Origin: Blautia sp. An81
GTDB lineage: Bacteria > Bacillota > Clostridia > Lachnospirales > Lachnospiraceae
Direction of reading: 5' to 3'
Length of the DNA stretch: 64,000 bases
Assembly: GCF_002161285.1 (NCBI RefSeq)
Contig: NZ_NFHH01000005.1
Location: forward strand, 62,001-126,000
In this document: positions 8,869 through 60,567 of the stretch, piece after piece
Position numbering within the stretch: the stretch's first letter is position 1
Layout: each line of letters begins with the position of its first letter
Translations under genes and position numbers: made by a program
The notes under the pieces: model-generated
The model's input: the letters and a program-made list of their open reading frames with translations, nothing else
What the model was told of the DNA's origin: nothing
Database searches by the model: none

Positions 8869-10230
8869 TTATTCTTCCTTCCAAAACTTCACCTGTTTTC
8901 CCAGGAAAAACAAAGCCACCAGGTTAGGCAGGGCCATCATACCATTAAAGGCATCTGACAGCTCCCAGATCAGGCTTGGCGCCAAAATACAGCCGGGAAG
9001 TGTAATGAGGATATAGACATATCGATAGACAGAAGCGCCTTTTTCTTTTCCCAGATATGCCGCAGTCTGCTCTCCGAAATAGGACCAGCCTGCAATAGTG
9101 GCAAAAGCAAATAATGCCGTAGCCGCTGCCAGAAACTGCTCTCCCCATGGGATTACCGAAGCAAAAGCCTGACCAGTCAGCGTGGTGCCATCCACTGTTT
9201 CTATTCCCCGGCCCATCTGTTCCAGATATAGTTCCGGCTGGTATACGCCGCTTGTAAGGATTACCAAAGCAGTAACTGTACAGCCAACCATTGTATCGAT
9301 AAATACCTCCAGCATTCCCCACATTCCCTGTATCTCCGGTTCCTTTACGTCAGACTGAACATGGGCCATTACCGAAGACCCCAGGCCTGCCTCATTAGAG
9401 AAAATCCCTCTGGCTACTCCCATTCGGACAGCCTGTTTCACAGTGTATCCTGCTGCTCCGCCCAGTCCTGCTTTCATCTGAAAAGCCTGGGTGAATATCA
9501 TTTCCACTGCCTGGGGAACTGCTCTCCAATTTACGGCCAGCACTGCCAGCGCTCCCAGAAAATAAATTCCTGCCATAAGGGGAACCAGCTTTTCTGTAAG
9601 AGCTGCCACCCGTTTTACCCCGCCAGTGACCACCAGGGCCAGCAAGATCATACAAAGGGTGCCGGTCAAAAAAGGGGGAATGCCAAAAGCAGTCTCTAAG
9701 CCCTTTGCCATGGAATTCCCCTGAACCATATTTCCCATCCCCAAAGAGGCCACAAGACAGCATACTGCAAAGAGTACTGCCAAAAGCCTGGAGTTTAATC
9801 CTCTCTCCATATAGACCATGGCACCGCCTATCCATTGTCCCTTCTGGTCTTTATATCGATACCGGATTCCCAGATAGTTTTCCGCATAGTTGGTCATCAT
9901 TCCGAAAAATGCTGAGACCCACATCCAGAAAATCGCCCCTGGTCCCCCGAAAATCAATGCAGTAGCCACTCCTGTAATATTTCCCGTTCCAAGAGTAGCT
10001 GCCAGTGCTGTACAGAAAGACTGGAACTGGGAAATGGAATGTTCTTTGTCTGTTCTTCTCACATCTTTTCTATTTAGTAAAGCGCCAATAGTCATTCTCA
10101 TCCAGATATGTATTTTTCTTATCTGAAAGAATCGCGAGCGAAGAGTAAAACGAATTCCCGTTCCCAAAAAGAACACCAGCATCCCTGGTCCCCACACCAG
10201 ATGCTGAAGCCCGTGAATGAACTCTTCCAT
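8869..10230 (-). CDS. Sodium:alanine/glycine symporter (AGCS family)
   Basis: This multi-spanning inner-membrane carrier has about 453 residues. AGCS signatures include GPGMLVFFLGTGI near the N-terminus, the region around TALAATLGTGNITGVATAL, and FSNEAGLGSSVMAHV, part of the conserved substrate/Na+ pathway. The family imports alanine or glycine with Na+. The open frame extends 20 codons further up, but homologues begin near MEEFIHGLQHLVWGPG, so ATG 10230 is preferred although its ribosome site is weak. I saw no glycine riboswitch upstream. The gene is divergent from glgC. Confidence 0.88.
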   Translation of the reverse strand: MEEFIHGLQHLVWGPGMLVFFLGTGIRFTLRSRFFQIRKIHIWMRMTIGALLNRKDVRRTDKEHSISQFQSFCTALAATLGTGNITGVATALIFGGPGAIFWMWVSAFFGMMTNYAENYLGIRYRYKDQKGQWIGGAMVYMERGLNSRLLAVLFAVCCLVASLGMGNMVQGNSMAKGLETAFGIPPFLTGTLCMILLALVVTGGVKRVAALTEKLVPLMAGIYFLGALAVLAVNWRAVPQAVEMIFTQAFQMKAGLGGAAGYTVKQAVRMGVARGIFSNEAGLGSSVMAHVQSDVKEPEIQGMWGMLEVFIDTMVGCTVTALVILTSGVYQPELYLEQMGRGIETVDGTTLTGQAFASVIPWGEQFLAAATALFAFATIAGWSYFGEQTAAYLGKEKGASVYRYVYILITLPGCILAPSLIWELSDAFNGMMALPNLVALFFLGKQVKFWKEE

Positions 10231-10466: not shown

Positions 10467-11606
10467 ATGAAACAAAACAATATGTTGGCAATGATACTGG
10501 CCGGTGGTCGTGGCACACGTCTGCATGAGCTGACAAAAAAAGTTGCAAAGCCTGCCGTATCCTACGGCGGAAAATACCGTATCATTGATTTTCCACTGAG
10601 TAACTGCGCCAACAGTGGAATCGACAATGTAGGCGTACTGACACAGTACGAGTCCATTCAGTTAAACAGCTATGTAGCTGCCGGCGGACGCTGGGGACTG
10701 GATGCCAAAAACAGCGGAGTTTACGTACTTGCTCCCCGTGAAAAGGCAGATGTAGATTTAGACGTATACAGAGGAACCGCAGATGCTATTTCTCAGAATA
10801 TCGACTTTATCGACAGCTTTGATCCGGAATATGTCTTAATCCTTTCCGGAGATCACATTTATAAAATGAACTACGCAAAAATGCTTGCTGCACATAAAGA
10901 GCAGAATGCAGACGCTACCATCGCTGTAATTGAAGTTCCAATGAAAGAAGCCAGCCGCTTCGGTATCATGAATACAGATGAGACAGGAAAGATTGTAGAA
11001 TTCGAGGAAAAACCTGAACATCCAAAGAGCAACCTGGCTTCCATGGGTATCTATATCTTTACTTGGAAACCTCTGAGAAAACTTTTAACTGCAGATATGA
11101 AGAATCCGGATTCTCACCATGATTTCGGTAAAGATATCATTCCTGTTATGCTCAATGAAGGCAAGACACTTTACGCTTACAAATTCAAAGGATATTGGAA
11201 AGACGTAGGAACCATTGATTCTCTTTGGGAGGCCAATATGGACTTGCTGGACAAAAACAATCCTCTGGATTTAAGCGATTCTTCCTGGAAGATCTACACC
11301 GAAGATTCTGATAGTCTTCCCCATTATATCGGTCCCAATGCAGAAATTAAACGCGCATTTATCACCCAGGGCTGTATTATCGATGGTACTGTAGAAAACT
11401 CTGTATTATTTACAGATACCAAGATTGGAACTGGCGCTAAGGTTATTGACAGTGTGATCATGCCAGGCGCTGTGGTAGAAGAAGGCGCTGTGGTGCAGAG
11501 AGTTATTGTGGCAGACGGCGTACATATCGGCAAAAATGCCAAGGTAGGCAGTGCTGACAGCGAGCATATCGAACTCATTGCAAAACGTGTAAAGGGGGAG
11601 GAATAA
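10467..11606 (+). CDS. glgC: Glucose-1-phosphate adenylyltransferase, catalytic subunit
   Basis: GlgC makes ADP-glucose from glucose-1-phosphate and ATP, the committed step of bacterial glycogen synthesis. The N-terminal nucleotidyltransferase motif [13 protein letters not shown] is intact, as are the substrate lysine region [11 protein letters not shown] and the acidic [10 protein letters not shown]. The C-terminal part is a left-handed beta-helix of hexapeptide repeats ([21 protein letters not shown]). The start follows GAGAGGG. Length is 379 residues. It is followed after 1 bp by glgD, so the two are translationally linked. Confidence 0.95.
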
Positions 11607-11607
11607 T

Positions 11608-12723
11608 ATGAGTAAGGCATTAGGAATCGTAAATTTTGCCGGAAGGAATGTACATATAGAGGGCATGCAGACCTACCGTCCTGTAGGAGCATTTTCTTTC
11701 CTGGGACGCTACCGGGTAATCGACTTCCCGATTTCCAATATGAGCGACAGCGGCATTGACCGTATTCAGGTATATATCCGCAGAAAACCTCGTTCTTTGA
11801 CCGAGCATCTGGGAACCGGACGTCATTATAATATCAACTCTAAGAGAGGAAAACTTCATCTTCTCTACTCTGAAAACGGTATGGACAATGATATCTACAA
11901 CAATGACATTGCTGCCTTTATCGAAAATATGGAGTTTATTGAACAGGCCAGTGAACCTTATGTAGTGATTGCTCCCAGTTATATGATCTATGCTATGGAT
12001 TACAGCCAGCTTCTGGAATCACATATTGAATCCGGTGCAGACATTACTCTTTTATATCATTCTGTGGACAATGCAAAGGAATCTTTCCTGAACTGCAATA
12101 TCCTGAACCTGAACAAGCAGAAAGGCGTTCTTTCTATGGAGCCTAATCACGGAAATGCGAAGAATCGTAACATCTTCATGGAAACCTATGTAATAAAAAA
12201 AGAACTGTTTATTGAGCTGGTAGAAAAAGCTCATAAACTTTCTTCTATGTATACGCTGTCTGATATTGTAAATGATTCCTGCAGCGAATTAGATATCCGT
12301 GGAGTAGCTCATCGTGGATATTTTGCTTCAATTTCTGACTTTAAGAGCTATTATGATGCTAATATCTCTCTCATAGATATGAAAGCCTGCCAGAGTCTTT
12401 TCAGTGATGAATGGCCCATTTACACCAGGACTAACGATTCCTGTCCGACTCAGTATTTTGAAAGCGCCAGCGTGAAAAACTCTGTTGTTTCCAACGGCTG
12501 CCTCATTGAAGGTACTGTAGAAAATTCCGTAATCGGAAGAGGCTGTGTGATCAAAGAAGGTGCTGTAGTTAAGAACAGCGTAATCCTTCCTGATTCTGTA
12601 ATCGGAAAAGATGTTTATGTAGAGAATCAGGTAGTAGATAAGCATGCTAAGCTGATTCATGTAAAGGAGATTATCTCTTCCCCTGACAGACCAGGTTATG
12701 TCAAGAGAAATGATACCTTATAG
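11608..12723 (+). CDS. glgD: ADP-glucose pyrophosphorylase regulatory subunit
   Basis: GlgD is a paralogue of GlgC that forms heteromers with it in Firmicutes and increases activity. It keeps the overall fold (DFPISNMSDSGID, hexapeptide repeats in GCVIKEGAVVKNSVIL) but has lost the GGxGTRL catalytic loop: here the N-terminus reads GIVNFAGRNVHIEGMQTYRP. That degeneration identifies it as the regulatory subunit. Length is 371 residues. AGGGGGAGGAA precedes the start. No glgA, glgB or glgP lies in the window. Confidence 0.93.
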   Translation: MSKALGIVNFAGRNVHIEGMQTYRPVGAFSFLGRYRVIDFPISNMSDSGIDRIQVYIRRKPRSLTEHLGTGRHYNINSKRGKLHLLYSENGMDNDIYNNDIAAFIENMEFIEQASEPYVVIAPSYMIYAMDYSQLLESHIESGADITLLYHSVDNAKESFLNCNILNLNKQKGVLSMEPNHGNAKNRNIFMETYVIKKELFIELVEKAHKLSSMYTLSDIVNDSCSELDIRGVAHRGYFASISDFKSYYDANISLIDMKACQSLFSDEWPIYTRTNDSCPTQYFESASVKNSVVSNGCLIEGTVENSVIGRGCVIKEGAVVKNSVILPDSVIGKDVYVENQVVDKHAKLIHVKEIISSPDRPGYVKRNDTL

Positions 12724-50637: not shown

Positions 50638-51624
50638 TCAAATACCTGATTGAAAAGATTTCTCAGGAACACCTCTTATGGAAACCTTATGACAGACCAG
50701 TCTCTCCCCTTCCAGGTCTTCTTTTGCCAGCTCCACAGCCTGTACGCTGCTGTTGTCATAGGTTTTATAATAATAGACTCCTCTCTTTCCATTTACACAG
50801 CAGGAATAAGTCGTCATATCACAGGTTCCTTCCTCTGTGAGGACTGTCCCCTTCACCATACTTACCTGATCCAGTATATGAAATATCTGGGATACATTGG
50901 CGTTTTCCTCTTTCTCACATCTGGAATTCCAAAGCAGAAAGGCAGCCCTTACGAAACGGGAGGCAGAAGAAGCATCTCCCGGAAGTCCTATTCCTCCCAT
51001 TCCCTGACAGTAGGGTTCCAGGGGCAGCTTCCTGGAAAAGGTATTTTCTCCCTGCCCTGATGACAGCTTCCGAAAATGAGTCAGATAATCTTTATGAAAG
51101 GGAAAAGGGGGATTATTCGTCAGTACCTTTATAGGGTTTTCGTAAATCTTCAGTCCTTCTTCCACTGCCTCCAAAACCACACATTCCTTTCCGTCACCCA
51201 GCATCCAGTGGAGAGGAGCAGGAGGCATCTCTTCAGCAAAAGGAATCTTTACGATCCTGGCCTGAAAAAGAAGCTCTCTGGCTTCCTGCACAGAAGCACA
51301 GGAGGCCAAAAGCCATGGTATAATCTCAAAAGGAGCAACATTTTTCCCTCCTTCTTCCGCCTCCTGATATACTGCATTTTGTGGAAAATTCAGGCCTGCC
51401 ATAAACAGACCTTTTTCATTTACTGCTTCGGCGTAAAGAGGAAATGTATCCTCAGAAGCGGCCATACCTGCCATGGCATAATGTTTTTCTGCAGGATCCA
51501 GCTTCCGGAATTTAAGGATATAATTCCTTGGAGTAAGAATGATCTGTTCTCCAATCGAGTAATCCAGGTCCATATTCCGTCCGAAATAAAAGTCTCCGTT
51601 TTCATAAGCAATACATGTACACAT
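50638..51624 (-). CDS. Choloylglycine hydrolase family enzyme, bile salt hydrolase-type
   Basis: This Ntn hydrolase has its nucleophile directly after the initiator: starting at ATG 51624 gives MCTCIAY, so Cys2 becomes N-terminal after Met removal. An upstream in-frame GTG (51630) would bury it. Other active-site residues are visible in FGRNMDLDYS (Arg, Asp), GLNFPQNAVY, VLTNNPPF (Asn) and GLPGDASSASRFVR (Arg). These match bile salt hydrolases, which free bile acids from glycine or taurine. Penicillin V acylases share the fold, but the GLPGD-SS-SRF stretch favours bile salt hydrolase. Length is 328 residues. Confidence 0.85.
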   Translation of the reverse strand: MCTCIAYENGDFYFGRNMDLDYSIGEQIILTPRNYILKFRKLDPAEKHYAMAGMAASEDTFPLYAEAVNEKGLFMAGLNFPQNAVYQEAEEGGKNVAPFEIIPWLLASCASVQEARELLFQARIVKIPFAEEMPPAPLHWMLGDGKECVVLEAVEEGLKIYENPIKVLTNNPPFPFHKDYLTHFRKLSSGQGENTFSRKLPLEPYCQGMGGIGLPGDASSASRFVRAAFLLWNSRCEKEENANVSQIFHILDQVSMVKGTVLTEEGTCDMTTYSCCVNGKRGVYYYKTYDNSSVQAVELAKEDLEGERLVCHKVSIRGVPEKSFQSGI

Positions 51625-51709
51625 TTTCACAGGTCAGCTCCATTTTCCTCATATATACTGTATCTTATTATTTCCCGAAAGACTTCTGTTATCCCCGTTT
51701 TTCAGGAAT

Positions 51710-53822: not shown

Positions 53823-53884
53823 CTGCCCCAGGAAACATAGTCAGAACTATTTCTGATTTCTGTTTCCCGGGGTAATCCCTTTTT
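53823..53884. terminator. Bidirectional terminator after the lyase operon
   Basis: CCCCAGGAAACATAG pairs with TTTCTGTTTCCCGGGG, with T tracts on the plus side and A-rich sequence on the other. It separates the small membrane-protein gene from the second lyase gene. Confidence 0.65.
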
Positions 53885-55407
53885 CAGGCCTTTTTATCTG
53901 CTGCCTTCCAGGCGGTATCCAGCATTTCTCCTTCATGTATCCATTCTTTTATCCACTGGATCCACGGATAGATATACATATCTTTTTCCATTGCCGGAAT
54001 TTTTTTCTTCATTCCCTCATATACAGCAGAAGTTCCCTTTCCCCGTTTCAGATTTTCATCTATAAAAAACTGGGCCTGATAAGCGGACAGAGCCTCAACA
54101 GCCAGAATATATTCCAGCTTGTCCGCCGTCTCTGCTGCCTTTTTACAGGCATTATACCCCATAGACACATAATCCTCCTGTCCCGCGCTGGTGGACACAC
54201 TGTCTGCTGTAGCAGGAACAGCCAGCATCCTCATAGTATTCAGCAGGCCTGCCTGGGCATACTGAGGAATCATCAGGCCGGAGTTCAGGCCCGGATTTTT
54301 TACCAGAAAAGAGGGCAGGCCGGAGAGATTCTGGTCCAGAAAGCGAGCGTTTCTCCGTTCCGACATCTTAGCCAGATTCACCGCCGCAATACAGGCCGCA
54401 TCCATCTCCATCCCCACATAAGAAGCATCTGGATTTCCATTGGAATAGACCTCTGGGTTCTCCGGAGATCCATAGACCACTGGGTTGTCGCCACAGGCGT
54501 TTATCTCACAGGATACCACTTCCCAGGCATCCTTAAGAATCCTTTTTGCGGCTCCATGGAGCTGAGGGATGCATCTTAAGGACAAAGGATCCTGTAAATG
54601 ACTTCCCGCCCATTTTTTCACAACCTCTGAGCCTGCTAAAAGAGCTTTCAGGTTTTCTGCAGTCTCTTCCAGCTCTTTCTGGGGGCGGCATTTGGTCACA
54701 TGGCTGTCATATGCCCGCATCTGCCCTTTTAATCCCTCCAGAGACATTGCTGCCACTACGTCTGCAGTCTCTGCTGCCTGGGCCAGTCTGTATACAGCCA
54801 GCGCGGCCAAAGCTGTAGGAGAGGTCGTTCCATTGATAAGAGCCAGCCCCTCTTTATAGCTGAGAGTAAGGGGTTCCATGCCTGCTGCTTTCAAGGCTTC
54901 CTCTGCAGCCATCAGCTCTCCCTGATACCAGGCTCTTCCTTCTCCGATGAGCACAGCCCCAATATGGGCTTCCGCACATAAATAGCCTACAGAGCCTTCT
55001 CCCGGCACATAGGGGATAAGATTTTTATTCAGAAATTCCCGATATCTTTCCAGCACCTCCAGCCTCACACCGCTGACTCCTTTTCCCAGGCTCTGAAGTA
55101 CCATCAGGATCACCGCCCTGACTTCTTCCTCTTTCAGTGGATTCCCCACAGATACCGAATGGGTCAGAATAATGTTTTTCTGAAGGAGCTCCGCTTCTTC
55201 TTTGCTGATAAACTGAGAAACCAGCGCTCCGAATCCTGTAGTCGTTCCATAAACTGCAGCTTCTTTTTCCACACAGGCCTCAATGATCTCCCTGGACTTT
55301 CTGATTCTCTCCCGGTATTCCTGAGAAAATTCTACTTTGCTGTGAAAAACAGCAATCTCTATAAATTTTTCTATACTGAGATCTTCACCTAAAATAACGG
55401 TTCCCAT
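53884..55407 (-). CDS. HAL/PAL-fold lyase without the MIO tripeptide (ergothionase-like candidate), paralogue 1
   Basis: This 507-residue protein aligns over its full length with histidine ammonia-lyase: YGTTTGFGALVSQ, KEGLALINGTTS, LQDPLSLRCIPQLHGA and GQEDYVSMG are all in order. True HAL has GSVG-ASG-DLAPLAH, where Ala-Ser-Gly cyclises to the MIO electrophile. Here GSVG is followed directly by YLCAEAHIGAVLIGEG, so exactly those three residues are missing. Tyr of QDPYSLRC is Leu, and GGNFHG is GNPDASYVG. A classic ammonia elimination is therefore unlikely. Elimination of a better leaving group such as trimethylamine is plausible, given the BCCT transporter gene in the same operon. It is the last gene of that operon. 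Confidence 0.8.
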   Translation of the reverse strand: MGTVILGEDLSIEKFIEIAVFHSKVEFSQEYRERIRKSREIIEACVEKEAAVYGTTTGFGALVSQFISKEEAELLQKNIILTHSVSVGNPLKEEEVRAVILMVLQSLGKGVSGVRLEVLERYREFLNKNLIPYVPGEGSVGYLCAEAHIGAVLIGEGRAWYQGELMAAEEALKAAGMEPLTLSYKEGLALINGTTSPTALAALAVYRLAQAAETADVVAAMSLEGLKGQMRAYDSHVTKCRPQKELEETAENLKALLAGSEVVKKWAGSHLQDPLSLRCIPQLHGAAKRILKDAWEVVSCEINACGDNPVVYGSPENPEVYSNGNPDASYVGMEMDAACIAAVNLAKMSERRNARFLDQNLSGLPSFLVKNPGLNSGLMIPQYAQAGLLNTMRMLAVPATADSVSTSAGQEDYVSMGYNACKKAAETADKLEYILAVEALSAYQAQFFIDENLKRGKGTSAVYEGMKKKIPAMEKDMYIYPWIQWIKEWIHEGEMLDTAWKAADKKA

Positions 55408-55434
55408 GGATTCTCATCCCCCTGTTTTCCTATT

Positions 55435-56967
55435 CTATTTCAGCTTTCCTGCAATGTCTTCCGCCAGTTTCAGGACAGTCCCTGAATGGATCAGCTCCCG
55501 GAGATATTCAATATGAGGATACAGGAGCATATCCTTTTCCATTACCGGTATCTGTTTCCCCAAGGTTTCATATATATTCTTTGATACAGAACTTACCTCC
55601 GTATCTCTATCCTGGAACTGCTGGGCCTGATAGTCGGAGAGCAGTTCAATAGCCAGGATATACTCCAGCTTTTCTGCTGCCATCCCCGCCTTTCTGCAGG
55701 CAAAATACCCCATAGCTACATAGTCTTCCTGATTGCCGCAGGTAGGGGTATTGTCTACCGTTGCCGGAGAAGCCAGAACTCTCATTTCATTTAAAAGTCC
55801 TGCCTGGGTGTACTGAGGAATCATCAGTCCGGAGTTCAGCCCCGGTTCCTTAATGCAAAACCATGGATAACCGGAAAGGCTCTCATCTATGATCCGGTTA
55901 TTTCTCCTTTCCGACATTTTTCCTAAGGTACAGGCTGCAATACATGCGCTGTCCATTTCGATTCCCACATAGGAAGAATCCGGGTTGCAGGCAGAGATGA
56001 CTTCCTGTCTGCCCTCTTCTCTCCATATGATAGGATTATCACAGCAGGAATTGATCTCTGTCTCTATAGTTTTCCTGGCATCTTCCAAAGTTTTCTTCGC
56101 TGCCCCGTGAAGCTGGGGAATACATCTGAGGGAAAGAGCATCCTGTACTCTGGATCCCTGATATTTTTTTATAACCTGGGAATCTTTTAATATTTTTCTT
56201 ACGTTTTCTGCCGTATTTCCCTGCTCCCTGTGAGGGCGGACCTGCATCACTCTTTCATCGAAAGCGTTCATAACTCCCTTTAAAGTTTCCAGAGACAGTG
56301 CGCCGATCACATCTGCAGTTTTTCCTGCCTGGATAAGGTCATAAAGGGCAAGAGCAGCCAGGGCTGTAGAAGAGGTAGTTCCCGATACCAGGGCAAGTCC
56401 TTCTTTGGAGCTTAAGACCACAGGTTTTATTCCTGCTCTTTCCAGAGCTTCTCTGCCCTCCAGCATTTCTCCTTTGTACCATGCCTTTCCCATTCCCATA
56501 AGGACCAGAGCCCCATGAGCCTCCAAGGCCAGGTATCCCACACTGCCGTTTTGAGGGATCACCGGAACCACGCCTTTATTCAGAAAATCCCGGTAAGCCT
56601 CCAGGACCTCCAGCCGCACACCGCTGTAGCCCTGTCCCAGATTCTGAAGGACCATGAGAAGAATCCCTCTTACAGCCTCTTCCTTCAAGGGTTCTCCCAC
56701 AGAAACCGCATGGGTGAGAATAATATTTTCCTGGAGCTGTTCCGTATCCTCTTTTCCGATAGCCTGTGTGCATAAAGCGCCAAATCCGGTGGTGACTCCA
56801 TACATCACCTTTTCTTCTTCCACCCATTTTTCCACCAGTTCACGACTCTTTCTGACTCTTTCACAGTATTCCGGGGAAAATTCCACCTGGGCTTTATATC
56901 TTGCGATTTCTACAAATTCTTCTAAACTGAGATATCCTCCCAATATAATTTTTTCTTCTTTATTCAC
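55435..56967 (-). CDS. HAL/PAL-fold lyase without the MIO tripeptide (ergothionase-like candidate), paralogue 2
   Basis: This 510-residue tandem paralogue has the same deletion: GSVG runs straight into YLALEAHGALVLMGMG. It keeps YGVTTGFGAL, KEGLALVSGTTSS, VQDALSLRCIPQLHGA, NPDSSYVG and NQEDYVAMG. Compared with paralogue 1, the Asn of ALING is Ser (ALVSG), a change at a substrate-binding position of HAL, so the two probably differ in substrate. The GTG start overlaps the transporter stop (GTGAATAA), so the two are translated in coupling. True ammonia-lyase annotation should be avoided. Confidence 0.8.
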   Translation of the reverse strand: MNKEEKIILGGYLSLEEFVEIARYKAQVEFSPEYCERVRKSRELVEKWVEEEKVMYGVTTGFGALCTQAIGKEDTEQLQENIILTHAVSVGEPLKEEAVRGILLMVLQNLGQGYSGVRLEVLEAYRDFLNKGVVPVIPQNGSVGYLALEAHGALVLMGMGKAWYKGEMLEGREALERAGIKPVVLSSKEGLALVSGTTSSTALAALALYDLIQAGKTADVIGALSLETLKGVMNAFDERVMQVRPHREQGNTAENVRKILKDSQVIKKYQGSRVQDALSLRCIPQLHGAAKKTLEDARKTIETEINSCCDNPIIWREEGRQEVISACNPDSSYVGIEMDSACIAACTLGKMSERRNNRIIDESLSGYPWFCIKEPGLNSGLMIPQYTQAGLLNEMRVLASPATVDNTPTCGNQEDYVAMGYFACRKAGMAAEKLEYILAIELLSDYQAQQFQDRDTEVSSVSKNIYETLGKQIPVMEKDMLLYPHIEYLRELIHSGTVLKLAEDIAGKLK

Positions 56968-58582
56968 GGGCTTCCTCCTGTACTTCCTTAAAATCTGGAT
57001 TCTCCATAGCAGCCATGCTGCTTTCTATATCTTTCTTGGTCTCTCTGTCCAGGAAAAATACCTTGATCGCTGCACCGATCTGAAGTATAAAGATGATCAG
57101 GACTACAAAACCGCCGCAGGCTGCCAGGTATTTTACCCCGTCTACTCCCTGCTCTCCGCCTCCAAAGGCAACCATGATGCAGGCAATAAGTCCGATGGTA
57201 ACGCCCCATACGATCTTCTGCCATACTGCCGGTTCTTCATCATGTCTGGCACCTTTGGTACACAGGGCGGATATGGTGGTAGACATGGTGTCCGCAGTGG
57301 TAGAGAATGCGGCGATCAGCGCCACGATCAACACCGGAATGATAATAAATCCCAGCGGGATCTGCTGGAGGAACTCCCATAATCCAGCTACAGCTCCCTG
57401 CTCCTGGATCACGCCTACAATATCTGCCTTGCCAGTAATCTGCCAGTCTAAGGCAGTGCCTCCCCATACAGCAAACCAAACTAATCCAAAGGATGCTGGC
57501 AGAATCCAGTTAATGATCAAAAACTGACGGACAGTTCTTCCGTAAGCGATCATGGCAAAGAAAATTCCCATAAGAGGCGCATAGGCAATCCAGATTGCCC
57601 AGTCATACATAGTCCACCAGGTAACCAGGGCTTCTCCTCCTACTGTATAAGGATCCAGTCCCCAGGTCCAGAAACGATCCAGCCAGTAACCAAGACCTAC
57701 ATTTGCCATATTCAATATGTAGACCGTAGGTCCGATAATGATCAGTGCGATCAGAAGCACATAGAAAATTTTGGAGGTCAGGCCAGCCAGCCACTTAATG
57801 CCCTTATCAATTCCTGTTACAGAGGCAACGGTAAAGGTTGCTGTAATAATCGCAGTAAGTATAAACCAAACTACCGGTCCCTGAGCAATGCCATATACGG
57901 AGGAAAGTCCTGTTCCGATCAGTGCAAGGCCGGCTCCCAGAGAAGAAGCCAGTCCAAGGGCAATGGCCAGCACAGAAAGCACATCAATGACGGCTTTCCA
58001 GAATCCCTGAGTCACTCTGTCGCCAAAGAGAGGAGTCAGGGAAGCAGAAACAGAAAGCTCCTTATTTCTGTTAAAATACATGTAAGCAATAACAACCCCG
58101 GAAAGAGCATACATAGCATATGGGATAAAGGTCCAGTTATAAAATCCCCGGCCCAGAGCAAAATAAGCGGCCTCATCGGTAAACGCTTCTACCCCATAAC
58201 CGTCCAGTTCCCCATAGATATTTCCATAGTAGACCATGACTTCATTAACGCCATAAGTGATCAGTCCTGTAGCGATGCCCCCTGTCAGTGTCATGGCAAA
58301 CCAGGATCCGAAGGAATATTTTGGTTTTGCATTAGCTCCTCCAAAACGGATATTCCCGATTTTGGAAAATGTCAAAATAGCCACTAATATCAGAGTTACT
58401 ATGGCAATAATCTGATACAGCCAGCCAAAGGAGGTCAAAGACCAGGTAAAGATCTCCCTTGTTACCTCTGTCAGCCACTGGTTGTTTACCAGTCCCAGAA
58501 TGGCTGCCCCTCCGATCACCAGGAAACAAGGAACAAAGACACTCCATCGAATCGGTTTTTTGTTTGTTGTGTTGTTTTCCAT
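56960..58582 (-). CDS. BCCT-family transporter for a trimethylammonium compound
   Basis: This 540-residue membrane protein has twelve hydrophobic segments and the BCCT signature TWWTMYDWAIWIAYAPLMG, then FFAMIAYGRTVRQFL. WFAMTLTGGIATGLITYGVNE is the glycine-rich helix 3 region. The family carries betaine, choline, carnitine and other quaternary amines. The N-terminal and C-terminal tails are short, so it is not a strongly osmosensing BetP type. It is first gene of the sigma-54-controlled operon with the two MIO-less lyases. This suggests uptake of their substrate, or product exchange. Confidence 0.9.
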   Translation of the reverse strand: MENNTTNKKPIRWSVFVPCFLVIGGAAILGLVNNQWLTEVTREIFTWSLTSFGWLYQIIAIVTLILVAILTFSKIGNIRFGGANAKPKYSFGSWFAMTLTGGIATGLITYGVNEVMVYYGNIYGELDGYGVEAFTDEAAYFALGRGFYNWTFIPYAMYALSGVVIAYMYFNRNKELSVSASLTPLFGDRVTQGFWKAVIDVLSVLAIALGLASSLGAGLALIGTGLSSVYGIAQGPVVWFILTAIITATFTVASVTGIDKGIKWLAGLTSKIFYVLLIALIIIGPTVYILNMANVGLGYWLDRFWTWGLDPYTVGGEALVTWWTMYDWAIWIAYAPLMGIFFAMIAYGRTVRQFLIINWILPASFGLVWFAVWGGTALDWQITGKADIVGVIQEQGAVAGLWEFLQQIPLGFIIIPVLIVALIAAFSTTADTMSTTISALCTKGARHDEEPAVWQKIVWGVTIGLIACIMVAFGGGEQGVDGVKYLAACGGFVVLIIFILQIGAAIKVFFLDRETKKDIESSMAAMENPDFKEVQEEARE

Positions 58583-58644: not shown

Positions 58645-58661
58645 TGCAATTTACGTGCCAA
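58645..58661 (-). promoter_or_regulatory. Sigma-54 (-24/-12) promoter of the BCCT-lyase operon
   Basis: The minus strand reads TTGGCACGTAAATTGCA, matching the consensus TGGCACG-N4-TTGCW exactly. It lies 63 bp upstream of the transporter start and beyond it are three activator sites. Confidence 0.95.
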
Positions 58662-58720: not shown

Positions 58721-58836
58721 TGCATAATTTTTTTGCACTCTGCATAACTTTTATGCATCAATCAAAGAAAGATGACAAAAAATCCTTTATTTTAGCTCCA
58801 TAGGGAAATTAAGAATTTATGCAAAACTATTTTGCA
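58721..58836. promoter_or_regulatory. Three 17-bp palindromic activator (enhancer) sites
   Basis: The pattern TGCAWAA-N3-TTWTGCA occurs at 58721-58737 (TGCATAATTTTTTTGCA, one imperfect pair), 58741-58757 (TGCATAACTTTTATGCA, perfect) and 58820-58836 (TGCAAAACTATTTTGCA, perfect). They lie 60-175 bp upstream of the sigma-54 promoter, the usual place for activator binding. The third overlaps the -35 of the activator gene. Confidence 0.85.
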
Positions 58837-58860
58837 CATATTATCAGATTATGGTACAGT
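58832..58860 (+). promoter_or_regulatory. Promoter of the sigma-54 activator gene
   Basis: TTGCAC (58832-58837) and TACAGT (58855-58860) are 17 bp apart. Because the third palindromic site overlaps the -35, the activator probably represses its own gene. Confidence 0.6.
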
Positions 58861-58887
58861 AAAGAAAAATGCAGGAGGCCAGCACCT

Positions 58888-60567
58888 ATGTCAGAAAAAA
58901 GCTTTTTTGATATTTTATTTTATACGGACCGGGACGCTCAGTGCAGAGAAGTTTTTTATGGGGATCCGGACACGGAAAAGATCTATTCCCTTCTCTTTAA
59001 TAACTGGATCCATGAAAAAAGGCATATCACCTCAGTTCTGCCTATTTCTCTTAAGGATACTGAAGGAAGCTTTATATGGGATGGGGATTCCTTTTTATTT
59101 AAAAAGCTTTCCGGCCCCAAAGGCGGTTTCTACTATCTTTTACTGAAAGAAGATTATCAGATTGACTTATACCGCCAGACCTTGAATCATCTGACGCAGG
59201 GCGTCCAGATCTATGACCGGAACGGCTATGCTGTTTTTTTTAATCAGACCAGCCGGAAAATCTCACAGATACCCTCTTCTCTGGATGTTCAGGGAAAACA
59301 TCTTCTGGATCTCTTTGCCCTGGATGAAGAAGTCAGCACTACCATGACCGCCCTGCGTACCCAGGCTCCCGTAATCAACAGAGTGGATCATTTCCGCACT
59401 TCCGCAGGAATTTCCATTCTGTCAGCCAATACCGCCTATCCTCTGAAAAGAGGAAAACAGATCATCGGAGCAGCCGCCTTTGAACAGACAAGGGATATCG
59501 TTGGCGCCTGCAAAGAAAGCATGATTGCCACAGAGCAGGCCTTGAATGGCTTTAAAAACAATGTACCTGCAACCCGTTTTTCCGGCTATAGCTTTGAAAA
59601 TGTCATAGGCCATGGAAAGGCTCTTCAGGAGGCTGTATCTATTGCAAAGAAAATCGCTCCTCAAACCAATTCTGTACTGCTTGTAGGAGAGACTGGCACC
59701 GGAAAAGAAATTTTTGCCCAGAGCATCCACAGAAGCAGTAAAAGAAGTCAGAAAAAATTTGTGGCTCTCAACTGTGCGGCTATCCCTGATTCTCTGATTG
59801 AGAGCATGCTTTTCGGCACACAGAAAGGAAGCTTTACCGGAAGCGAAAACCGGCCTGGATTTTTTGAAGAAGCCCAGGGTGGCACTTTGTTTTTAGATGA
59901 ACTGAATTCCATGAGCCTTTCCATGCAGTCCAAGATCCTTCGGGCCCTTCAGGAGAATTCTTTCCGCCGGGTAGGCGGACAGAAAGATATTTCTATGGAT
60001 GTACGTATTATCTCCTCCTGCAACAAAGACCCCTTTCAATGTATCGCAGATAATCAGCTTCGGAAGGATCTTTTTTACCGCCTTTCCACTGTCATGATCG
60101 AACTTCCTCCTCTCAGCATGCACATGGAGGATCTGGAGGAATTGATCCAGTACCATCTGTCTGCCACGGCCTATCAGTATGTTCACAATGTCACTGCCCT
60201 GGATAATCAGGTAATGGATCTCTTTAAAAGCTATTCCTGGCCGGGCAATGTCCGGGAACTGTTCCATGTCCTGGATTATGCACAAAATCTTGCAGATGGA
60301 GACACGATAACTTTAGAGCACCTTCCCTCCTACCTTCTGAAAGAGCAGAAGAGCATAAAAAAAGCTCCCGGAGTTTCTTACACTCCGGAAGCATCTTTGG
60401 ACTGGGAAAACTGTTCTCTGCAAAGCCTGATGGATGATTATGAAAATAAGGTTATCCTAAAGGCTCTGGAGCATTTTGGTTACAATATCACCCAGACTGC
60501 CCAGGCTCTGGGTCTGAGAAGACAAAGTCTCCAGTACCGTATCCACAAATATGGGATACATATCTGA
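58888..60567 (+). CDS. Sigma-54-dependent activator with PAS sensor (bEBP)
   Basis: This 559-residue enhancer-binding protein has an N-terminal sensory part with a PAS domain (about residues 105-215, GVQIYDRNGYAVFFNQTSRK). The AAA+ module has Walker A GETGTGKE, the sigma-54-contact loop GSFTGS (consensus GAFTGA, both Ala changed to Ser) and Walker B GGTLFLDELN. A Fis-type HTH closes it (LKALEHFGYNITQTAQALGLRRQSLQYRIHKYG). AGGAGG precedes ATG 58888. It is divergent from the BCCT-lyase operon and next to rpoN, so it surely controls that operon. The inducer probably binds the PAS part. Confidence 0.92.
   Translation: MSEKSFFDILFYTDRDAQCREVFYGDPDTEKIYSLLFNNWIHEKRHITSVLPISLKDTEGSFIWDGDSFLFKKLSGPKGGFYYLLLKEDYQIDLYRQTLNHLTQGVQIYDRNGYAVFFNQTSRKISQIPSSLDVQGKHLLDLFALDEEVSTTMTALRTQAPVINRVDHFRTSAGISILSANTAYPLKRGKQIIGAAAFEQTRDIVGACKESMIATEQALNGFKNNVPATRFSGYSFENVIGHGKALQEAVSIAKKIAPQTNSVLLVGETGTGKEIFAQSIHRSSKRSQKKFVALNCAAIPDSLIESMLFGTQKGSFTGSENRPGFFEEAQGGTLFLDELNSMSLSMQSKILRALQENSFRRVGGQKDISMDVRIISSCNKDPFQCIADNQLRKDLFYRLSTVMIELPPLSMHMEDLEELIQYHLSATAYQYVHNVTALDNQVMDLFKSYSWPGNVRELFHVLDYAQNLADGDTITLEHLPSYLLKEQKSIKKAPGVSYTPEASLDWENCSLQSLMDDYENKVILKALEHFGYNITQTAQALGLRRQSLQYRIHKYGIHI

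Follow-up and report, generated by a model that had tools for sequence, protein, structure and literature searches.

A 64,000-nucleotide stretch of the genome of Blautia sp. An81 (GCF_002161285.1, contig NZ_NFHH01000005.1, positions 62,001 to 126,000; hereafter the window) encodes two tandem proteins, P1 and P2, that have the histidine ammonia-lyase (HAL) fold and are three residues shorter at the site where HALs form their 4-methylideneimidazole-5-one (MIO) cofactor. Their genes follow one for a betaine/carnitine/choline transporter (BCCT), and we consider it likely, with a probability of roughly 60%, that BCCT, P2, and P1 serve the uptake of hercynine (histidine betaine) and the MIO-free elimination of trimethylamine from it, yielding urocanate. 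The sequence itself shows the deletion, the invariant residues, the clade, the order of the genes, a promoter-like site, and the neighboring genes; from these we infer the chemistry, substrate, product, regulation, and residue roles. The locus comprises:

53884-55407, minus strand: P1, MIO-less HAL-fold lyase of sub-clade B (507 amino acids; GSVGYLCAEAH, QDPLSLRC, NPDASYVG)
55435-56967, minus strand: P2, MIO-less HAL-fold lyase of sub-clade A (510 amino acids, GTG start; GSVGYLALEAH, QDALSLRC, NPDSSYVG)
56960-58582, minus strand: BCCT (PF02028, 5.8e-114)
58645-58660, minus strand: sigma-54 -24/-12-type site TGGCACGTAAATTGCA, an exact match 63 bases upstream of the BCCT start; predicted function
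58721-58757: two 17-base repeats, TGCATAATTTTTTTGCA and TGCATAACTTTTATGCA, 20 bases apart; possible activator-binding sites
58819-60567, plus strand: sigma-54-interaction activator with a Fis-type helix-turn-helix and a weak PAS match; predicted operon regulator

On the minus strand the gene order is BCCT, P2, P1, with the activator gene lying divergently upstream. The end of the BCCT gene and the start of P2 share 8 bases, and P1 follows P2 after a gap of 27 bases. Both lyase reading frames are intact, share 59% identity, and cover positions 1-464 of the 466 in the Pfam Lyase_aromatic profile (P1 536.5 bits, P2 559.7 bits).

The MIO site and its surroundings

P1 and P2 read GSVGYL-C/A-x-EAH in place of the HAL sequence GSVGASGDLAPLAH. 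Alignment with HAL structures gives a net three-residue loss at GSVG-ASG-DL, and the flanks align well on both sides, so that the original prediction, which had described a clean three-residue gap here, was exact in both its coordinates and the gap itself. Which three letters are deleted depends on the aligner, as Tyr145 of P2 replaces either Ala142 or Asp145 (elsewhere, residue numbers follow Pseudomonas putida HutH). The shortening is found in all 45 tree rows of a MIO-less class spanning several phyla, which we name the GY family after GSVGY, and in none of the 36 MIO-type HAL rows, which excludes chance or sequencing error as its cause; the five ergothionase-type rows have a one-residue deletion instead. 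All 45 rows, including P1 and P2, combine the motif GS(V/L)(G/A)Y(L/I)xxE(A/G)H, by which rows were assigned to the family as the first part of its definition, with the three-residue deletion, Glu149, and Asp330. Tyr53, His83, Gln277, Arg283, and Glu414 are invariant in the same 45 rows, and Leu149 and His330 are replaced by Glu and Asp throughout, as opposed to the MIO-type rows, which have His330 in 36/36 and Leu149 in 34/36 cases. Tyr280 is replaced by Leu in 34 GY rows and retained in seven. At the motif level, the initial reading agrees with these data: both proteins retain the Tyr of YGxTTGFG, the Arg of SLRC, and QED, have lost the Tyr of QDxY (Leu in P1 and P2), and carry NPD(A/S)SYVG, with Ala in P1 and Ser in P2.

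The ratio of nonsynonymous to synonymous substitution rates (dN/dS) relative to Candidatus Blautia merdipullorum is 0.040 for P2 and 0.043 for P1, and 0.030 and 0.093 for two neighboring genes; P1 and P2 are thus under strong purifying selection. Together with a change common to all 45 relatives, this bears out the early characterization of the active site as remodeled, not decayed. The absence of the MIO residues could also mean that both proteins are catalytically dead or regulatory HAL paralogues, but with these dN/dS values, a new active-site set fixed across the family, and a catabolic gene context, such a role is extremely unlikely. AlphaFold2 gives confident models, with mean predicted local distance difference test values of 92.4 (P2) and 93.4 (P1). 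The best matches of the P2 model among solved structures are HALs (TM-score 0.94), with an ergothionase first appearing at rank 14 (0.90, 28% identity). According to structure entry titles, HutH positions 145, 280, and 329 have already been mutated and solved by others.

As Ala-Ser-Gly is absent, MIO is not expected in P1 and P2, and they presumably could not activate a free amino group by the HAL route. The name histidine ammonia-lyase, which automatic annotation would assign and which the original prediction had questioned, is probably wrong for both. In NCBIfam, P2 scores above the 524-bit cut-off of the curated HAL model NF006871 (539.6 bits) and P1 below it (519 bits). This model is passed by three of the six GY members scanned, including a Peribacillus protein (L050:7971-9530) that exceeds two such models (559.1 vs. 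539.15 and 579.3 vs. 524 bits).

The retained residues suggest how the reaction might proceed. His83 and Glu414, which we take to be the imidazole-holding pair of HAL, would bind the imidazole ring of the substrate and Arg283 its carboxylate, while Tyr53 would abstract the beta-proton. Trimethylamine may leave through a pocket opened by the loss of the MIO loop and the Tyr280 to Leu exchange, as argued from the alignment, with Asp330 and Glu149 possibly placed to stabilize the quaternary cation or for acid-base work. In HALs, MIO lets the free amino group leave; a trimethylammonium group would need no such help, as in ergothionase. As the residues that bind the imidazole and the carboxylate are kept, along with the Tyr base, while the MIO loop and Tyr280 are gone, elimination from N-alpha-trimethylhistidine is the simplest reading. 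P2, and probably also P1, would thus eliminate trimethylamine without MIO, with hercynine or a close relative as the substrate of P1. Lyases for another aromatic betaine (of tryptophan, tyrosine, or phenylalanine) would have the same fold, which HAL shares with tyrosine ammonia-lyase (TAL) and phenylalanine ammonia-lyase (PAL), and neither the BCCT nor the other transporters of the family fix the side chain. Still, the presumed imidazole-type pair in 45/45 rows and the enrichment of hut genes nearby make this alternative very unlikely.

Distribution of the GY family and its relation to ergothionase

GY-family records come from Blautia, Acidaminococcus, Clostridium, Bacillus and relatives, Peribacillus, Lysinibacillus, Acinetobacter, Pseudomonas, a Synergistaceae bacterium, a Microbacteriaceae bacterium, and others. 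Named genomes, when scanned with a profile, yielded 78 loci from the best 80 of 578 matches. Within the taxonomic family of the window, five of 299 genomes contain at least 12 GY genes in total, a lower bound given that up to five candidates per genome were scored. Among 398 sampled genomes of the phylum, a threshold of E <= 1e-180 retrieved the GY family in the genome of the window only, and ergothionase-type genes were found in three; as this limit may miss distant sub-clades, close GY members are rare rather than absent. The best 30 of 893 records in a plasmid search with P2 were annotated as histidine ammonia-lyase or unannotated, and the top record, deposited as histidine ammonia-lyase, is a GY-family member. 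In Neobacillus pocheonensis, a stop near position 9017 splits the GY gene (L083:7962-9520), possibly because the gene recently became a pseudogene or because the assembly contains an error.

For the careful tree, 113 collected rows were reduced to 86 (dropping 21 Bacteroidota HAL rows and the six GY rows L030, L054, L056, L061, L075, and L083), and the MIO columns were left out. The GY family forms one clade (100/100) and the Treponema denticola-type ergothionases (5 rows) form a separate one (100/100). Holding both MIO-less clades together passes the approximately unbiased (AU) test (p = 0.353, and 0.677 in a quick tree, where the topology constrained to unite them was slightly better), so that one MIO loss is as compatible with the data as two; the MIO HALs were kept on one side in 4% of bootstrap trees. 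MIO may have been lost in the GY family separately from its loss in ergothionase, and the differing deletions make the number of losses testable. Sub-clades A (12 rows, with P2) and B (5 rows, with P1) differ at 10 near-fixed positions, several of which belong to the active site: residue 195 is Ser in A and Asn in B, 326 Ala and Asn, 327 Cys and Gly, and 410 Cys and Ser, respectively. Sub-clades C and D also exist, and in one genome (G136) all of A to D are present, spread over four contigs. In Acidaminococcus (L033:802-5511), an ergothionase-type, an A-type, and a C-type gene stand in a row, followed by a sodium:solute symporter, which makes this row a natural set for sorting substrates.

Ergothionase, the precedent named in the original prediction, is a good model for the mode of action, but P1 and P2 lie outside its clade, and P2 matches the T. 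denticola enzyme (structure 6s7j) with 185 bits vs. 307 bits for a MIO-type HAL. Kinship as sister clades is compatible with the AU result. The alternative that both proteins are themselves ergothionases, converting ergothioneine to trimethylamine and thiourocanate by convergence or shared descent, draws on the same result and on several shared features. Like P1 and P2, the T. denticola enzyme (PDB 6s7j/6s7q) has the HAL fold without the MIO residues, retains Tyr53, His83, Arg283, and Glu414, has Leu at 280, and is acidic at 330, with Glu where P1 and P2 have Asp. However, ergothionases have a deletion of one residue and keep Asp145, and P1 and P2 both have Tyr at position 386, which is Lys in 4/5 ergothionase-type rows. 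Moreover, the Acidaminococcus row already has an ergothionase-type gene beside its two GY genes, though that gene lacks Lys386, and all 12 hydratases neighboring GY genes are of the hutU type (see below). We therefore regard it as unlikely that both are ergothionases; P1 and P2 are best read, from sequence and gene context, as histidine-betaine lyases of a sister or parallel family. The ergothionase-type rows vary among themselves, with Leu (3/5) or Val (2/5) at position 280 and Glu at 330 in 3/5. Two ergothionase-type sequences (L128 and L129) read GSVGLSDLGPM, without Ala-Ser-Gly, and keep His330, unlike the rest of the clade; they possibly represent another kind of MIO-less site.

Organisms for which ergothionase is listed in sections of one article (PMC13405746) are T. 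denticola, Burkholderia, Agrobacterium, Alcaligenes, and the gut anaerobe Clostridium symbiosum, whose reported activity is a point in favor of the ergothionase alternative; Escherichia coli is also listed there, but with doubt. A BLAST search with the Burkholderia enzyme is described there as having found only HAL/PAL/TAL-like proteins.

Gene neighborhoods, substrate, and regulation

Neighbors were counted by tblastn, with score limits of our choice, at 44 non-redundant GY loci (691 kb), not all of which are independent, as several are from related Bacillaceae. A BCCT is encoded at 14, a sodium:solute symporter (SSS) at six, a major facilitator superfamily (MFS) transporter at 11, and any of these at 31 loci. 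HutI is found at 11 and a HutU homologue at 12 loci, compared with 0.46 HutU expected by chance in 691 kb at a generous two copies per 3 Mb. The combination of quaternary-amine transporters and urocanate breakdown genes suggests hercynine, the compound where both meet. All 12 neighboring HutU and that of the window genome score above the hutU cut-off (375 bits) and below the NCBIfam cut-offs for thiourocanate hydratase (930) and S-methyl thiourocanate hydratase (880), which points to urocanate rather than thiourocanate as the product and thus to hercynine rather than ergothioneine as the substrate.

The closest parallel is found in Acidaminococcus provencensis (L032), where a BCCT 74% identical to that of the window is directly followed by a P2-like gene, and FtcD, FchA, HutH, HutU, and HutI are encoded in the same stretch. 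At another locus (L043), HutU and HutI are accompanied by a glutamate dehydrogenase and a HutG match that is weak (22% identity). In L032, L039, and L064, a MIO-type HutH is present alongside the GY member, so histidine itself is already served there. The window genome has a single canonical HutH, located elsewhere, and no third MIO-less protein of the GY family was found in it. The BCCT would thus import the betaine, and the urocanate formed from hercynine would join the ordinary Hut route (FchA, FtcD, HutI, and HutU). The Pfam MTTB model has no match in the window genome, so trimethylamine is probably just released; two of the 44 GY loci (L042 and L113) contain an MttB-family reading frame without in-frame stops, in line with a quaternary-amine substrate.

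Several observations weigh against hercynine breakdown by P1 and P2. The stretches examined lack HutU at 32 of the 44 loci, and several of the 12 with it are from related Bacillaceae; in the window genome, FchA, FtcD, HutI, and HutU lie outside the operon, on the same contig and approximately 20-25 kb away. Eight loci, all Bacillaceae-type with an MFS transporter, encode a sarcosine-oxidase-like protein, so the substrates of these loci might be N-methyl rather than trimethyl compounds. The contrast with the neighbors of ergothionase-type genes is thin, with one case for and one against. Of six ergothionase-type loci examined (L033, L133, L134, L135, L136, and L137), two have a HutU homologue. 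The homologue in Burkholderia arboris (L134) exceeds the thiourocanate hydratase cut-off (1044 vs. 930 bits) and is encoded approximately 1.5 kb from a lyase gene that lies outside the set of tree rows and was called ergothionase-type because of its motif and its 36% identity to the protein of L033. In L135, a plain hutU-type gene (784 bits) is found approximately 5.5 kb from the ergothionase-type gene, which adjoins a BCCT (38% identity), and the neighbor rule is therefore not absolute. The NCBIfam thiourocanate models may also fail to recognize Firmicutes enzymes. Lastly, the 10 near-fixed differences between sub-clades A and B make a single substrate for P1 and P2 doubtful.

This last point leads to a serious alternative, somewhat short of even odds, in which the paralogues are a pair of enzymes for histidine betaines: hercynine would be the substrate of one, and a ring-modified relative (ergothioneine, S-methyl-ergothioneine, or N-tau-methyl-hercynine) that of the other. 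It is compatible with hercynine as the substrate of P2 and would fit the A/B differences at positions 195, 326, 327, and 410 and the sub-clade mixes, which vary by genome up to the A to D set of G136. On the other hand, B-type genes also occur near hutU-type genes (L047 and L109), so the product may be common to both. HAL active sites are assembled from three chains, and P1 and P2 could assemble into tetramers that contain both proteins and have a single kind of competent active site, as their tandem arrangement on one strand, 27 bases apart, their 59% identity, and the recurrence of the pair in L028 might suggest. Such an assembly is distinctly unlikely, as A- and B-type genes are adjacent only in the window and L028 among the 44 loci, so that neither generally needs the other. 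For the family as a whole, the chances are about even that it is a second, patchily distributed MIO-free HAL-fold lineage of hercynine trimethylamine-lyases, with sub-clades for ring-modified histidine betaines, that feeds the Hut pathway.

The proposed hercynine operon would be transcribed by sigma-54 RNA polymerase with the divergently encoded activator. The exact -24/-12-type site is one of two in the window (the other at 1724-1739); with up to two mismatches, 23 sites are found over the whole window, no excess over the 27.8 expected by chance, but shuffles of the 400 bases scanned upstream of BCCT give 0.005 sites with up to one mismatch. Homologues of the activator are found at other GY-family loci, and 16 of the 44 encode a sigma-54 activator (approximately 5 kb from the GY gene in L052). 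In hand-picked upstream regions, a site with up to two mismatches is present at 14 of these 16 loci (10 with up to one), 60-248 bases from the end of the region, vs. none of seven regions from GY loci without an activator. These data suggest sigma-54 control of the BCCT-P2-P1 operon.

Other genes recur near these lyases. Ten Bacillaceae-type loci (L048-L055, L075, and L083) have an MFS transporter, eight of them with a gene similar to sarcosine oxidase or N-methyltryptophan oxidase, possibly reflecting a variant pathway for partly methylated histidines. Xanthine-dehydrogenase-type molybdenum hydroxylase genes are found beside a GY cluster of three MIO-less genes, BCCT, and HutU (L106:4022-7771) and near an ergothionase-type gene (L135:13124-16697), perhaps to oxidize thiourocanate or the imidazole ring. 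Aconitase-X large subunits recur beside GY genes in L109, L113, L114, and L042, in some cases with the swivel domain; L114 also has a malate/lactate-dehydrogenase-like gene, and ALS-like genes are among the GY neighbors. Near the ergothionase-type gene of Sinorhizobium meliloti (L133) are an annotated dimethylsulfoniopropionate lyase (11256-11924) and an ABC transporter. The window itself encodes a choloylglycine (bile salt) hydrolase (50638-51630), which exceeds its curated cut-off (413.5 vs. 350 bits) and is consistent with a gut habitat; the host of P1 and P2 is probably a gut bacterium.

Significance and comparison with known systems

Hercynine is a betaine of mushrooms and the diet. If the proposed function is correct, it would explain how bacteria use this compound and add a source of trimethylamine in gut bacteria besides choline, carnitine, and ergothioneine. 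Parts of one article (PMC7794323) list hercynine among plasma metabolites termed gut-microbiota-dependent. Judged by titles and abstracts, the open-licence literature yielded no enzyme for hercynine breakdown and no description of the GY family; the route from a dietary betaine to trimethylamine, which we did not find described, would thus have been hidden under the name histidine ammonia-lyase, a misannotation to which the scanned members passing HAL models and the plasmid record point. It would also imply that the HAL fold can dispense with its cofactor, given a good leaving group, through a deletion unlike that of the sole known case. MIO-free elimination has a known precedent in ergothionase, which limits the novelty of P1 and P2.

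Compared with HutH, P1 and P2 have the full-length fold (TM-score 0.94) and residues 53, 83, 283, and 414, and their relatives are linked to HutU and HutI; they differ in the absence of Ala-Ser-Gly, shared by all 45 rows, in Tyr280 to Leu and His330 to Asp, and in the replacement of Leu149. With ergothionase they would share trimethylamine elimination, but they belong to a separate clade, with 28% identity in the structure alignment of the P2 model, and have the GSVGY motif with its three-residue deletion. Ergothionase-type members from Burkholderia and Sinorhizobium also have, by eye, a signal-peptide-like N-terminal segment. Finally, the thiourocanate and S-methyl thiourocanate hydratase pathways (NF058530 and NF058531) resemble the proposed hercynine route in that a MIO-free lyase is followed by a hydratase of the HutU fold, whereas the hydratases neighboring GY genes are, by curated cut-offs, of the plain urocanate type in 12/12 cases.

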